Origin: Aurantiochytrium sp. KH105
Taxonomy: Eukaryota; Sar; Bigyra; Thraustochytrida; Thraustochytriidae
Reading direction: 5' to 3'
DNA: 64,000 nucleotides
NCBI GenBank assembly: GCA_003116975.1
Contig: BGKB01000043.1
Location: 1 to 64,000 of the forward strand
Shown in pieces: positions 40,412 to 56,910 of this stretch. The position numbers were made by a program, and so were the translations under genes. Each line of letters opens with the position of its first letter. Positions within the stretch are counted from its first letter, which is position 1. The notes under the pieces are model-generated. The model was not told the origin of the DNA. It saw only the letters and a list, made by a program, of their open reading frames with translations, and made no database searches.

Positions 40412-41158
40412 TTACACAAGGTTGGACAAGACGGCGCGGCCGAGGGGCTTCTTGCCACTTTGGAAGGCGGAGCGGTCCTTGTAGTAGTTCCAGTTCACAG
40501 CGTCGACAAAGTAGTCCTTCTTGCCAATGCGCATAATGTAGCCTTCGACATCTTCGTCGGCGCCGTCATCAACGGCACTATCGGCATCATCGTCATCCAG
40601 TTCGTTATCCGTGCCGTCAAGCTCGTCTGGATAGTCCTCCATTTCGCTTGCAATCATGTCGTCTTCGGCGTCCTCTTCCTCGGTAGCACTGTCGTACGAT
40701 TCTGCTTTGGCTCCTTTGCGCGTGCCACGAAGGCGCCTCTCCATGGTGTCCTTGCGCGCACGATTGCCTGTGCCAAAAACGTCGCGTTTGACAAAAGCAC
40801 GGAGGTCCTCGCCTTGTTTGTGTTCGCGTCCATGGGCTTTCAGCTGGTTCGACCCGCCTGCCTTGATCACTTCCATGGCCTGGATCCAGCCCTCGGCGAC
40901 TTCCTGGCTCTCGGCCTGAAGATACATGGGCTCGTGGTCGGGTCCGGTGATACAGATTCCGCCTTCTTCGCCAAGCTCACGAAGCACACTAATGCTCGTG
41001 TGCTTGGTGATCTGGATGGATCCCTTGATGGGCGAGCCCTTTTTCTCGCAGAACTGCAACTCGCCATCGGTCGTAAGCATAAAGTAGCGACGTTTCCAGT
41101 TCTTACCACTCTGCATTGCCCGCTTCTTCAGGTAACCCTGAATCATGATGATCGCCAT
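40412..41158 (-). CDS. PH-domain protein with acidic C-terminal region
   Basis: Predicted 248 residues. A pleckstrin-homology domain fills about residues 5-100. It begins IQGYLKKRAMQSGKNWKRRYFML, with the Lys/Arg pattern of the beta1-beta2 loop that often contacts phosphoinositide phosphates. It ends with an amphipathic helix containing the family-typical Trp (EVAEGWIQAMEVI). A basic linker (about 110-155) and a very acidic Asp/Glu stretch (about 160-205) follow. The last 40 residues (EGYIMRIGKKDYFVDAVNWNYYKDR) form a separate compact segment I do not recognise. Likely a peripheral membrane adaptor; lipid preference is not predictable. The start is the first ATG before the PH fold. The coordinate follows frame arithmetic and could be off by one base. 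Confidence 0.85.
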   Translation of the reverse strand: MAIIMIQGYLKKRAMQSGKNWKRRYFMLTTDGELQFCEKKGSPIKGSIQITKHTSISVLRELGEEGGICITGPDHEPMYLQAESQEVAEGWIQAMEVIKAGGSNQLKAHGREHKQGEDLRAFVKRDVFGTGNRARKDTMERRLRGTRKGAKAESYDSATEEEDAEDDMIASEMEDYPDELDGTDNELDDDDADSAVDDGADEDVEGYIMRIGKKDYFVDAVNWNYYKDRSAFQSGKKPLGRAVLSNLV

Positions 41159-42020
41159 GGTGCCGTTTTCGTGGTGGCGTTCGCGGTGGCACCAGCCTTG
41201 CAAAAAGCTCGTCTTTTCTCTCGTGGCTCGTTGGCGTTCGTATTGTAAGCCTTGACTACGAACGACTGACTTCGCGTGCTGGCGTACGTGTATGTGTGTG
41301 CAGCTCGGTCGAGCTCTCGAGCTTGCTTACCCGCGCCTGCAGAACCGCTTTGCCCTGCGCAGCTCGCTCCTGCGCGCGTGCGCCCGCGCTTCGTCCCGCT
41401 TCGTCGCTCGCTCGTGTGCAGGTCGGCGCGTGCACGTCGTAGCGCGTGTACCAGCCCAGGACGAACGATGCGCCTGCTCCTCGGATCGATCGACCCCGTC
41501 CGCTGTCCACGCACCGCGTGTCCGGAGCCCGCGGGCGACCGCGCCCCTCCCCGCCTGCGCGTCTGCGCGCGTACTTCGTGCGCTCGCCCGGCGGTCTCGG
41601 TCTCCGTTCGTACTCTGCTCTGCTCTGCTGCTCTGCAGGGCGGCCCTGGACACGCGCGCCTCCTTCTTTCTAATCAGGCGCGCACACGTCTGCCTCCCTG
41701 CCCGCAGAACCGCGACGGAACCCGTACGTAACCCGCCACATTTTTTTATAAAATTTTAAATTTTTTTGGTCTCTCGTTCTGACCTCAGGCTGGGCTGTGA
41801 CCTAACGACCATCGAACCGCGGCCGGCAGCGAAGCAAACCCGGGTGGGGCGGCGAAGGGCGCGCGGCCGCGAGAGCGACGGAGGCGTGGACGCGCGCGCG
41901 GTGGGCAGCGAGGGAGCGAGGAGGGAGGGAGGGAGACGCAGGAAAACGCAGGAAGACGCAGGGAAACGTAGACCAGACGATACGGCAAGAGGCGAGGAAA
42001 CGAAGGGCCTGGAACGAAGG
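41159..42020. other. Divergent intergenic region, PH gene to PARP-like gene
   Basis: About 860 bp between two divergent starts, with mixed GC-rich sequence and a T/A-rich stretch at 41739-41770. It presumably holds both promoters. No separate gene supported. Confidence 0.55.
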
Positions 42021-43352
42021 ATGAGCTCCGAACGGGAAATGCTCAAGCACGTGGACGCGGCGCTGCGCGCGCTCGCGAGCGACCCGGACCAGATGCAGAG
42101 CATCAAGCTGGGACAGCTACCGGAGATTGCTCGAAAGGCCATGCCCAAGGACGTGGAGATGAATTTGACCAAGAAACAGCTCAAAAAGCGTCTGTTGCAG
42201 ATCTGCAGCGAGCTGGCGGCGGAGAGCGCGACGAGCAGCAGCGAAAGCGAGAGCGAGGCCGCGAGCGAGAATCCAGCCATGGAGGAAGCCAGCGAAGATG
42301 ATGAAGCAGAGCATTCACGATCAAGTACCAAGCGCAAAAAGAGAAAGCGTGGGCGGCAAATTGTGCGTCGCTCACGCGCCGGCGGCGCGACACACGAGCT
42401 CGCAAGAACCTCTCTTGCGAGGCTCGCACAAGACATTGGTACGCGCGAGACTCTTGCGCTTGCTGCTGCGAGTCTCAAGTTGAACTTGTCGAAAATGAGC
42501 ATCCAGTCGGTTTCTGATGCGGTACTGGATGAGGCGCTTGGCATTCTCGCCCGAATCCGCGTTACCCTAAGCCAGACCGCTCAGAAAAACGACCATCTCG
42601 AAGTAAACCGCACAGGATTTCTGGATCTCATGCGCTGTCGCTTTCACGAACTCATTGCGTGCACGAATGAGGATCTTACACTGCATACGATTAACGCTTT
42701 TTCGCAACGCTTTGAGGCCACATGGCGCCTCGACAACCTTCGAGACGTTGACGCCATCATAGCCCGCACGGAGGACAATCTCGAAGAGGTCGAAAGTGAA
42801 GTTCTTGCTCCCCTCCAGGTTGAAGAGACGACCTTGGACAGCAACGAGTGTGATCTGGCTGGACATTGGCAAGGTGTTTCGGACGAGATTGAGCTGGGCG
42901 ATGCGTTTGTGGTGAAGAAGCCTCTACGCGCGGCGGCCCACCAAATGTGGGCTGAATCCGGCCCGACTCACGTCGCCTTTGCTGTTCGGCCAGCAAGTGC
43001 AATGGTGAGCCTCCTGCGGCGCGGTGCGCAGCCGCCTCGTGCCAGTGCCGTTTCGTGCATTGGTCTTGAGGCTGGCGCTGTTTCTTTTTTCGACAGTGTT
43101 TCGCTCGCTCTCGAGCATCACAAAAAGACTTCTGTACTCACGCGAGCCAGTGGCCTGTACCTGGTCTGCTTTGACCTTGCTCTTGGCCCCCGCAAGCGGT
43201 GCGTGGACGTCAAGTCTGTGCCCCCTTCGCTTCCGACTGGGGCCAATGCTGCACGCATGTCGGTTACCTCGGCTTCGGGCCACGAGGGCAAGCGCTGGCT
43301 TGTTTTTAATGCGGGCCAGGCCCGACTCCACTCCTTTGCCAAGCTCATGTAG
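42021..43352 (+). CDS. PARP-family protein with degenerate catalytic domain
   Basis: Predicted 443 residues from the ATG beginning MSSEREM. Residues about 5-70 resemble a DEK-C/SAP-like helical DNA-binding module. A Ser/Glu linker and a KRKKRKRGR nuclear signal follow. Residues about 150-265 match the helical PARP regulatory domain: LSKMSIQSVSDA, LGILARIRVTL, and a following acidic helix. Residues about 300-443 follow the PARP catalytic fold: GLYLVCFDLALGPRKRCVD, LPTGANAARMSV, and the final strand RWLVFNAGQARLHSFAKL. The NAD-binding triad is lost: His of WHGS is Ala321, Tyr of GIYFAD is Ser355, and Glu of EYIVYD is Arg425. So the fold is retained without catalytic residues: probably a nuclear DNA-bound pseudoenzyme or scaffold. 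The reading frame is intact, which argues against a pseudogene. Confidence 0.75.
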   Translation: MSSEREMLKHVDAALRALASDPDQMQSIKLGQLPEIARKAMPKDVEMNLTKKQLKKRLLQICSELAAESATSSSESESEAASENPAMEEASEDDEAEHSRSSTKRKKRKRGRQIVRRSRAGGATHELARTSLARLAQDIGTRETLALAAASLKLNLSKMSIQSVSDAVLDEALGILARIRVTLSQTAQKNDHLEVNRTGFLDLMRCRFHELIACTNEDLTLHTINAFSQRFEATWRLDNLRDVDAIIARTEDNLEEVESEVLAPLQVEETTLDSNECDLAGHWQGVSDEIELGDAFVVKKPLRAAAHQMWAESGPTHVAFAVRPASAMVSLLRRGAQPPRASAVSCIGLEAGAVSFFDSVSLALEHHKKTSVLTRASGLYLVCFDLALGPRKRCVDVKSVPPSLPTGANAARMSVTSASGHEGKRWLVFNAGQARLHSFAKLM

Positions 43353-53576: not shown

Positions 53577-53712
53577 ATCGGATGGCGGAGTGAGACTGTA
53601 TTTCGCCCGAAAAATCATGCCCCCGGACACTTGTGATCGAATGGCGGAGCGACTGCATTTCGCCCGAGATATCATGCATCCAACAAACGATAGACGGCCC
53701 CCGGACACTTGA
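53577..53712. repeat. Duplicated segment overlapping the MCM8 3' end
   Basis: Two imperfect direct copies, about 53577-53634 and 53636-53712. Both contain ATGGCGGAG, then CATTTCGCCCGA or its variant TATTTCGCCCGA, then ATATCATG or its variant AAATCATG, and both end CCCCCGGACACTTG. The second copy has about 18 extra bases and carries the MCM8 stop codon (53672-53674) and last codons. Confidence 0.85.
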
Positions 53713-56386
53713 GAAGGTAACATTGCTGATTGAGCACTTCAATCAGCTCCTTGAAGTCGGGGATCTGATGCAAAATCTTGGCCTGTTGGGCCTCCGCCTT
53801 CATCTGCTCCACGGTGAAACGCGTTGACCCGCGCTGCCGTGCAACATTCTTGAGCTGCGCCACGAGCGCCTTGCAAAGCTTGGCCATGGACATGCCTCCA
53901 CTGCGTTGCAGGTCCACCACTCCAGAATCATCCGTAAAGGCATCCAGCAAGGATTCCTGCATGAGAGAGACAATGTCCTCCGCGTCCGCTTCCGTGACGA
54001 GGTCTCGCAACTCTAATCGTGCACGCGCCTGTGCAAGACGTACGAGCGACTCTAGTTGCCGCGTTGTGATGGGCGTTGACTCGCAGGAGCTCCCCTTCTC
54101 GCGCAGCTCCAAGTAAAATCCTTGCAAGACTCGGCACGCACCTAAACTCAGCTTGGGATGACAGTAATGCTTTGCGAATGCAAGGTACTTGCGGAGAAGC
54201 TCGGCCGGAAGAGGGTCCGTGCCCTCATAGGCCCGCACACGCTCATGCAAGAACGCTTGCACGGGCTGGGCTCGAGGCCGCGTTTGCTTTCGAGGCGGCG
54301 GTCGACCTCGCCGCACGCGTCGACGCTTGCTGGCTTGCGTTGCCGAAGACGAGGACGGCGTCCGCTGCGACGACCCTGCAACGCTATTGCCAGCCTCATT
54401 CTCATGTTGCAGGTGCATATCGACAACATATTCAGCAATATTGCCATCGTGGCGATCGTCCGGACGGTCCACCAAAATAAAGACCAGGTCAAAGCGAGAG
54501 AGCAATGGCGCGCTCATGCGCAAATTCTCCAGTACGGTACGATTTCGATTGTAACGGCCTCCTATTGGATTGGCTGCCGCGAGAATAGCCGTGCGCGCCG
54601 ACAATGTACATACAATTCCAGCCTTGGCTATCGAGATTGATTGCTGCTCCATTGTTTCGAGCAGTGCTGCCGAGTCGCATTGCATCTTATCAAATTCATC
54701 GATACAGCACACGCCACGATCGGCCAGCACCAACGCTCCAGCTTCCAAAGAGTGCTCGCCATTCTTATCCTTGGCCATCGTCACAGTGAGACCCGACTGC
54801 GATGCGGTGTTGCCACATACGTAGACGCCTCGAGGACTCACAGCAGCGGCAGCCTTGAGCATCTGACTTTTGCCCAAACCTGGATCACCGACAACAAGAA
54901 CATGAATGTCGCCCCGGATAGGTACAGAACTCTTTCGCCCGGCAACACCAGTTCCGCCCGCAAGACCCAGCAAAAGCCCAAACTTGACGTGCTCCTGTCC
55001 CAAAATGAGTGGACACAGACTATGCACCAGAAAGGAGTAGTCGAACTTTTCGGAAACCAGCTGGATCATGGCATAGTCCTTTTCGGTCAGGTTGGCAACA
55101 ATGTCATTCTTTTGCTTGGTGTCCTCTCCTCCGGCCATCACGTGCGGGGCTCGTTGAGTGCTTGCTGCTTCTTGACTTGTCAACCCTTGGCCTGCGCCAA
55201 GGTTCCGGGCCCGAATTTCACGCAAGAAGTCCAAAGCACTGTCCTGCGTCGAAGCTAGCCCGGGCAACGACCGCTGACTTGCGCCTTGAGATGGAGGTTT
55301 CAGTGGTGCCTTTCGCACTGGCGATTGTGACGGCGACTGCTCTTGAGCCCCTCTGTGGGTTGGAGACTGAGACTGTGACTGAGACTGGTTCTGCGCTTCA
55401 ACCCGAGCGCCCTGAGGCCGACTTGCAACGAGCGACTTGGTCTCAATCGAGTTCGCTTCGAGAATGAGAATGAGCAGGCTAGCCTCGCGATTCTTTCCCT
55501 TGGCGCGGGACCCCTTGCCGGTGAGACTCTCCGCATTCAAGGCCTTGACAATTCCGCAAATCGTGACCACATCGCCAGGAACAACGAGATCAACAAGATC
55601 CTCTGTTAGTTCCACGTCAATCGTGCGCGGCACGGCGCCGCCATTTGCAGTAGGATTAGCCGCCTCATCCGCTTCTTGCAAACGGACCAATTGAAAATCC
55701 ACCGTCACCGCAGACGCCTTGTCGGCCTTGAACACCTTGCCTTTGCAGTCTGCATTCTCGCAGTGTGTTGGCGGCGCAAATTTGCCGTCTGGCATGCTCT
55801 TGCAAATACTTTCCCCGCACTTTGGACATGCAAAATCCATTCGCTTCACCATTGGACGCACGCCCGACACGCGCACGACCGTGCCTCGCACAGCGACAAA
55901 CTTGCCCAAGTGGCTTGATTTGAGCGAACGAATGCTCGTGAGGGGTCTGTACGCCACAAAACGTGCGCTGATCCGGGTCAGCACAGGATTGAGTCCGTTG
56001 TCCGCCGATTGAAGTGCTCGCATGGAGCAAATCGCCAAGCCGAGGCAACTCAACGTCATTCTTGCGTTTGAACGGAGCGAAGCTGCAAACTTGGCAAGTG
56101 GGTCTGGTTCCGTGAGCAGGGAGCAGAATTGACGGAAATCAAAGACCACTTGTGTCGCCTTTTCCAGGTCGACGCCTTCGAGCAGCCCGGCGCCCTTGCC
56201 GGTTCCAGGCTTGAGGAAGGCCCGGAATAGCTTGACCGCACGAACCCACGCGTGCTCAGGATCAAAGTCATCAAAGGGAAAGAAGAGCTCCCAGTTCTCC
56301 TTAACCAACGCTTCTTCTTCGTTTAGTGCTCGTCCTCCATCGCGTCCTGCACCGCCGCCGCACTCGTCGTCTTCGTCGATCGCCAT
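53672..56386 (-). CDS. MCM8: MCM8 DNA helicase
   Basis: AAA+ helicase subunit that works with MCM9 in homologous recombination and crosslink repair, outside the MCM2-7 replicative ring. Predicted 904 residues from the first ATG (MAIDEDD). An N-terminal OB region carries a C4 zinc motif, CPKCGESIC...CENADC (about 187-213). A Gln/Ser-Pro-rich insertion follows at about 330-420. The ATPase core has Walker A GDPGLGKS (about 498-505), RGVCCIDEFDKM Walker B (about 559) and the arginine finger in LLSRFDLVF (about 628). GVYVCGNTASQSGLTVT, ALLETMEQQSISIAKAGIVC and AANPIGGRYN are closest to MCM8 among MCM paralogues. A basic, probably nuclear-targeting insertion lies at about 690-715, and a winged-helix-like end follows. 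All catalytic motifs are intact. No MCM9 is present in the window. Confidence 0.95.
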   Translation of the reverse strand: MAIDEDDECGGGAGRDGGRALNEEEALVKENWELFFPFDDFDPEHAWVRAVKLFRAFLKPGTGKGAGLLEGVDLEKATQVVFDFRQFCSLLTEPDPLAKFAASLRSNARMTLSCLGLAICSMRALQSADNGLNPVLTRISARFVAYRPLTSIRSLKSSHLGKFVAVRGTVVRVSGVRPMVKRMDFACPKCGESICKSMPDGKFAPPTHCENADCKGKVFKADKASAVTVDFQLVRLQEADEAANPTANGGAVPRTIDVELTEDLVDLVVPGDVVTICGIVKALNAESLTGKGSRAKGKNREASLLILILEANSIETKSLVASRPQGARVEAQNQSQSQSQSPTHRGAQEQSPSQSPVRKAPLKPPSQGASQRSLPGLASTQDSALDFLREIRARNLGAGQGLTSQEAASTQRAPHVMAGGEDTKQKNDIVANLTEKDYAMIQLVSEKFDYSFLVHSLCPLILGQEHVKFGLLLGLAGGTGVAGRKSSVPIRGDIHVLVVGDPGLGKSQMLKAAAAVSPRGVYVCGNTASQSGLTVTMAKDKNGEHSLEAGALVLADRGVCCIDEFDKMQCDSAALLETMEQQSISIAKAGIVCTLSARTAILAAANPIGGRYNRNRTVLENLRMSAPLLSRFDLVFILVDRPDDRHDGNIAEYVVDMHLQHENEAGNSVAGSSQRTPSSSSATQASKRRRVRRGRPPPRKQTRPRAQPVQAFLHERVRAYEGTDPLPAELLRKYLAFAKHYCHPKLSLGACRVLQGFYLELREKGSSCESTPITTRQLESLVRLAQARARLELRDLVTEADAEDIVSLMQESLLDAFTDDSGVVDLQRSGGMSMAKLCKALVAQLKNVARQRGSTRFTVEQMKAEAQQAKILHQIPDFKELIEVLNQQCYLLKCPGAVYRLLDA

Positions 56387-56910
56387 CACCGCGGATCCGC
56401 CAGGAGATCGCGGATGGTTGGGGGTAGTGGGCCTTCGGAACTAATCCTAGCTAGCACGCGCGCAGCACGCAAACGCACGCGCGCAAGACCGCCGAGACGG
56501 CACCCTTCTCCCTCGCCAACTGTCGCTCGCCCGTCCGCACCCAAAGGCTTTGTTTGGCGCGCAAGGCCGAGCCGGCGGCACGGCTCCGTCTTAACCGTAA
56601 TTACTCGCCTACGACTTTGCATTCCTTGTGACGATTCCTCGACAACGAAAAGAAAAAAGAAGGGCACATCAAGCCTGCCTCAAGCTCATGCAAAGCCCTT
56701 CGAAGAATTGCCGCAAGTGCCAACAACAATATGGAAAGACTTGGACAAGAGCAGGCGCATGCAGATCGCGCAAGTGTCGAGTACATTCACGGCAGGCGCG
56801 TGGAATCGCTTCACCAAAACAGAAAGCGAGAAAAGCAGATAACTCTCGCGTTATAAAAGCTAGAGCAAAACAAAGCAAAGCCAAATCTAAATTAGAAAAC
56901 AAAGTCAAAG
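56387..56910. other. Intergenic, MCM8 start to URI1 stop
   Basis: About 525 bp between two minus-strand genes. Short basic frames on the plus strand (for example 56414-56842) match no known family. Confidence 0.5.

Follow-up and report, generated by a model that had tools for sequence, protein, structure and literature searches.

The gene at positions 42021 to 43352 of the window (the 64,000 nucleotides of contig BGKB01000043.1 of Aurantiochytrium sp. KH105 analyzed here) raises the question of whether it encodes a PARP-family protein that is maintained without catalysis, or only the remains of an enzyme. We propose, with a probability of roughly 0.6, that the gene product is a nuclear pseudo-PARP without catalytic activity which likely acts as a scaffold. 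In this model, the protein would begin with a helical domain, followed by an acidic linker, a basic stretch resembling a nuclear localization signal (NLS) and then a degenerate PARP catalytic module, which comprises a helical regulatory domain (HD) and an ADP-ribosyltransferase (ART) domain. The catalytic His, Tyr and probably Glu, together with most other conserved motif residues, would have been lost, so that no ADP-ribose transfer would be expected. Its most likely role would be to bind other proteins, as a scaffold or a competitor, either in chromatin or in the ADP-ribosylation pathways of those PARPs in the same cell that carry the His-Tyr-Glu (H-Y-E) triad. The elements on which this model depends are as follows.

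42021..43352, forward strand: pseudo-PARP gene, one open frame of 443 amino acids (open reading frame, open second copy in the genome, and a ratio of non-synonymous to synonymous substitution rates (dN/dS) of 0.21 between the copies)
42414..42779, forward strand: putative divergent PARP regulatory domain (HD), residues about 132-253 (Pfam below cut-off, hhalign, purifying selection on residues 126-257)
42885..43349, forward strand: candidate pseudo-ART domain, residues about 289-443 (profile score above all controls, AlphaFold2 model and fold match)
42981..42983, forward strand: codon of Ala321, at the predicted catalytic His position (MAFFT and profile alignments)
43083..43085, forward strand: codon of Ser355, at the predicted catalytic Tyr position (MAFFT and profile alignments)
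43293..43295, forward strand: codon of Arg425, probably at the catalytic Glu position, with Glu422 as a close alternative (MAFFT, the alternative coming from the profile alignment)

The frame encodes Ala at residue 321, Ser at 355 and Arg at 425. MAFFT aligns these with the catalytic H, Y and E of the genome's own PARPs. In a second MAFFT alignment, with 48 prokaryotic or phage PARPs, they again fall in the three triad columns, where H, Y and E are each invariant (48 of 48). His, Tyr and Glu also occur in 51 of the 51 sequences of the profile described below, Tyr having been part of the pattern with which 48 of them were fetched. For His and Tyr the profile alignment gives the same placement, but its Glu column falls on Glu422, which scores 0.5 bit better than Arg425. 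By alignment, then, the His and Tyr of the triad are replaced, by Ala321 and Ser355, and three alignments show no His or Tyr at these sites; the replacement of Glu by Arg425, which the sequence-only reading had put on an equal footing, is probable but not certain. The spacing from A321 to S355 is 34 residues, the same as in human PARP1, where we take the His and Tyr to lie at 862 and 896. The last residues paired in the structural match are 443 of the pseudo-PARP and 1006 of PARP1, which would set Arg425 on residue 988 if the intervening stretch is gap-free. Of the 31 columns that are at least 90% conserved in the 48 PARPs, 22 are changed, with only I212, L254, V298, F356, D358, G389, S414, G420 and Q433 kept. 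These replacements lead us to expect that catalysis, and perhaps also binding of nicotinamide adenine dinucleotide (NAD), has been lost.

The layout of an HD followed by an ART is supported for both parts, although neither is close to its family. The Pfam PARP_reg profile matches residues 132-253 with an E value of 0.0054 and 17.2 bits in the whole protein, and with 2.8e-4 and 21.4 bits in the HD fragment (2.1e-4 for the fragment of the second copy), all below the curated cut-off of 26.8 bits. Aligned by hhalign against three PARPs from its own genome, the HD gave an E value of 5.8e-4 and a score of 30.7, against 19.9 for the best of 200 shuffles. The domain was modeled poorly by AlphaFold2 with a PARP alignment, at a predicted local distance difference test score (pLDDT) of 41-77. 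A regulatory domain ahead of a catalytic-like domain characterizes Clade 1 type PARPs, and on sequence similarity the predicted protein has this arrangement. Furthermore, residues 142-309, which begin in the HD and reach the first part of the ART, give a local profile match of 10.2 bits (E 1.8e-5 in a one-sequence search).

For the ART half, two sequence collections were scanned for FGxG[IV]YFAD, and 79 of the 115 frames obtained matched a PARP profile. Dropping short or cut frames and adding three own-genome PARPs left 73, and removing near-duplicates left 51, of which 48 are prokaryotic or phage and three are from this genome; the alignment for structure prediction used the 48 only. Against this 51-sequence profile, residues 289-443 scored -23.7 globally, compared with -27.0 for the best of 1000 shuffles and a top score of -27.2 among 1000 segments of other open frames (307 frames of at least 320 codons lacking WHG or YFAD, some of them perhaps not real proteins). 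In a smaller run of the same test, none of 300 shuffles reached the score. The AlphaFold2 model built with the 48-PARP alignment shows an ART fold for these residues and matches the PARP fold structurally; the fold is supported but not proven.

The gene itself is intact. An uninterrupted frame of 443 codons, as had been claimed, begins with the ATG at 42021 and closes with a stop codon whose last base is 43352, and a second copy on contig C46 (L010, from position 1501) is open too, 96% identical, and has the same Ala, Ser and Arg residues, with no internal indels between the two coding sequences. The same frame remains open upstream of the ATG back to 41766. However, the upstream DNA of the two genomic copies differs by 16 indels in 1200 bases, its translations fall out of register, and the nearest gene found upstream, a PH-domain gene at 40412-41203, faces the opposite way; the ATG at 42021 was therefore taken as the start. 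Nothing points to a further domain encoded by an exon upstream. The genome, 76.0 Mb long and assembled in 367 contigs, contains at least 20 matches to the PARP catalytic domain (PF00644), and as the scores and frame lengths of the 20 listed suggest 10 pairs, it seems to carry two copies of most genes. Four PfaD-family matches above the cut-off, together with the large open frames, would fit a thraustochytrid.

The copies also allow selection to be assessed, with neutral expectations simulated at 60% transitions. Between them, dN/dS is 0.21 for the gene, 0.13 for the HD, 0.06 for the linker and 0.51 for the ART half. Four of the 13 changes in the HD are non-synonymous, as are four of 13 in residues 1-125, the N-terminus and linker (neutral P about 0.002 in each case); the signal in residues 1-125 derives from the linker, residues 1-65 having two non-synonymous changes and one synonymous. 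The HD and the linker are under purifying selection.

Several results weigh against our proposal. Nine of the 15 changes in the ART half are non-synonymous (P 0.26), indistinguishable from neutral drift. No Pfam match to PF00644 was found in the pseudo-PARP up to an E value of 10. The aligned AlphaFold2 model leans on its PARP sequences; in the run without an alignment, the ART half fell below pLDDT 50. Even in the aligned model, the stretch just before Arg425 reaches a pLDDT of only 62-65, which, with the preference of the profile alignment for Glu422, makes the third replacement less certain than the first two. Lastly, AtPARP1 with its triad changed to Cys-Val-Glu (C-V-E) is described in the available portion of PMC6701155 as inactive yet NAD-binding; loss of the triad alone does not, therefore, imply loss of NAD binding.

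The substitution pattern raises the prospect of a decaying gene, a former PARP whose active site has been lost and whose ART half is drifting while the HD part is kept for now. The nine non-synonymous and six synonymous changes of the ART half contrast with four and 32 in the pooled ARTs of three H-Y-E pairs from the same genome (Fisher P 0.0007), and the divergence is extreme, its stem in the tree amounting to some 8 changes in each column. Within the gene, the contrast between the ART and the rest is less marked (P 0.10). When a fourth H-Y-E pair (L007/L008) is pooled as well, with 25.5 non-synonymous against 13.5 synonymous changes in an ART that includes a long inserted tail and 3 against 6 in its first part, the difference is gone (P 0.16), and rapid change in an ART is not necessarily a sign of decay. 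Moreover, the ART half contains no frame-breaking indels where 4.5 to 7.4 would be expected from the rates in the flanks, the upstream one of which takes in part of the PH gene's coding sequence. That a PARP signal has survived such divergence may itself argue for upkeep. On balance we regard decay as unlikely. The suggestion that selection keeps the fold stands for the HD and linker; in the ART half the frame has been kept, and upkeep there rests on the absent frame-breaking indels, residue-level constraint not being shown by the substitutions.

A variant of the proposal, which we hold only tentatively and consider rather unlikely, would shift the function of the protein to the HD, normally the autoinhibitory lid of an active PARP. 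The HD would then bind partners in the nucleus as a module in its own right, competing with the H-Y-E PARPs of the cell or tuning them, and the emptied ART would persist mainly as its structural support. Such a swap of roles would have a constrained HD beside a relaxed ART as its signature. The variant is weakened because the substitutions in residues 1-65 do not demonstrate constraint there, and because the ART of one H-Y-E pair is fast too.

It is also conceivable that the C-terminal half is something other than a PARP ART, and that only the HD-like helices are PARP-related, or that these too are a chance helical match. The negative Pfam result and the bias of the aligned model bear on this, as does the position of the HD below its cut-off. 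The gene is absent from the 20 PF00644 matches listed for the genome, hhalign of the ART half against the three-sequence profile of own PARPs gave an E value of 0.24 and a score of 15.2 (best shuffle 23.7), and the ART of the C46 copy scores -27.1 on the 51-sequence profile, at the edge of the controls, the top-scoring shuffle made from the window segment being slightly higher. Against this, the score of the window segment exceeds all 1000 shuffles and all 1000 other segments, its position and length fit an ART, and four elements of the alignment-free model (helices 302-312 and 327-333, strands 379-386 and 422-428) lie close to their counterparts in the aligned model, whereas strand 343-350 and helix 354-363 of the alignment-free model disagree; all of these are at pLDDT below 50. 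Similarity of the C-terminal half to PARPs by profile search is thus missing with Pfam and the three-sequence profile and present with the larger one, and we consider a non-PARP origin improbable. A divergent but still active transferase working with other residues, such as Glu422 and a nearby His, could draw on Glu422 lying only three residues before Arg425 and scoring better in one profile alignment, but is highly improbable given the missing His and Tyr and the 22 changed columns.

Returning to the proposed pseudo-PARP, its N-terminal region comprises three further elements.

42027..42236, forward strand: predicted N-terminal helical domain, residues 3-72, family not assigned (AlphaFold2 single-sequence model, no DEK_C match)
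42225..42314, forward strand: Ser/Glu-rich acidic linker, residues 69-98 (read in the sequence)
42330..42377, forward strand: basic NLS-like stretch, residues 104-119 (read in the sequence)

The single-sequence AlphaFold2 model of residues 1-70 has a pLDDT of about 82-94, with helices at 3-20, 22-27, 30-40 and 51-72. The sequence-only reading had seen here a DEK-C/SAP-like module with a nuclear signal, in a protein that binds DNA breaks. A helical domain and a basic stretch are indeed present, and residues 104-119 suggest a nuclear location and role. The DEK-C or SAP identity is not borne out: among nine genome matches listed for the DEK C-terminal domain (PF08766, up to E 10) none lies at the pseudo-PARP or its copy, neither DEK_C nor SAP gave a Pfam match, and comparison with a DEK_C-bearing peptide of the genome (L141) revealed no similarity, as 107 of 200 shuffles scored equally well. 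Binding to DNA breaks finds no support beyond composition, as no WGR, BRCT or zinc finger was matched by Pfam in the whole 443-residue frame up to E 10; in contrast, the PARP1-like protein of the genome has WGR and BRCT domains and the PARP2-like protein has WGR. About 10 kb downstream of the gene, an MCM8-like helicase gene with a winged-helix domain occupies 53672-56389 of the window on the reverse strand.

Paralogues of H-Y-E type, whose presence had been left to be checked, are found elsewhere in the genome; among the four best PF00644 pairs, all 8 loci carry the H, Y and E motifs. The PARP1-like protein (L017/L022) has PADR1, BRCT, WGR, HD and ART domains with H, Y and E motifs, and the PARP2-like protein (L015) has two WGR stretches, WWE, HD and ART, also with H, Y and E motifs. 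In the pair L005/L006 (C12/C166) a PARP domain with HD and H-Y-E motifs ends a frame of 3118-3124 codons, with WGR in L005; L007/L008 (C25/C71) has H-Y-E motifs. WGR occurs in three of the four own-genome PARPs scanned. In six further loci read by eye, His is kept in all six and Tyr in five, and both are replaced in none of the own-genome paralogues read. The exception, L148 (C25:349300-351100), has FHGT but SIHF at the expected Tyr motif, where His may replace Tyr. In both L005/L006 and L007/L008 the PARP domains lie near the end of open frames 3118-3567 codons long, and L007/L008 is fast-evolving, with a dN/dS of 0.50 over the frame stretch compared and, within the ART, changes mainly in the inserted tail. 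PARG_cat_C and HPF1 had no match in the genome despite its PARP1-like genes, a lead only, as the search had no working control. Bacterial contigs (several of the Spirosoma group) and contigs of a viral collection (L024-L138) encode PARPs with a PARP1-like catalytic motif, with H, Y and E in the 48 kept.

Pseudo-PARPs are a small known group, including PARP9, PARP13, RCD1, TASOR and AtPARP3, and the modeled protein shares its defining feature, an ART fold with replaced catalytic residues. PARP13/ZAP, PARP9 and plant RCD1 belong to other PARP clades, carry other accessory domains and are not known to have an HD. To our knowledge, pseudo-PARPs outside plants come mostly from clades without this domain. 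The sections available of PMC6701155 describe AtPARP3 as having an HD and an ART with the altered triad C-V-E, inactive and without NAD binding. Plant PARP3 is Clade 1D of Citarelli et al. (2010), some plant members having an N-terminal SAP domain (PMC2964712, in its available part). Like the pseudo-PARP it has an HD followed by an ART with an altered triad, but it keeps BRCT, WGR and the Glu, whereas our protein has no BRCT or WGR match and has probably lost the Glu. The pseudo-PARP domain of TASOR (DUF3715, HUSH complex) has, in the accessible text of PMC7532188, an ART fold that has lost all but one key residue and functions without catalysis. The likeness, judged by description, is an ART fold with catalytic residues lost; the difference is that no HD is described there. 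As TASOR works without catalysis and AtPARP3 is an inactive HD-bearing PARP, a scaffold or competitor role with protein partners is plausible by analogy.

In the 2010 set, altered triads within Clade 1 are reported for land plants alone, with Glu retained (Citarelli et al., PMC2964712, same portion). The main text of Perina et al. (PMC4245714), in the part available, makes no mention of thraustochytrids or labyrinthulids. No protist pseudo-PARP of HD-ART layout was found among the listed titles and abstract openings of the open-licence literature, which is weak evidence of absence; an HD-bearing protist member of the group would be unusual. The closest comparison lies within the genome itself, where the PARP1-like and PARP2-like proteins share the HD-ART order, at 18-20% identity over HD and ART, but possess H-Y-E motifs and WGR. 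An HD-bearing pseudo-PARP that lacks the His and Tyr of the triad and probably the Glu as well, existing alongside such enzymes, would provide a natural test of what an HD and an empty ART can do without catalysis.
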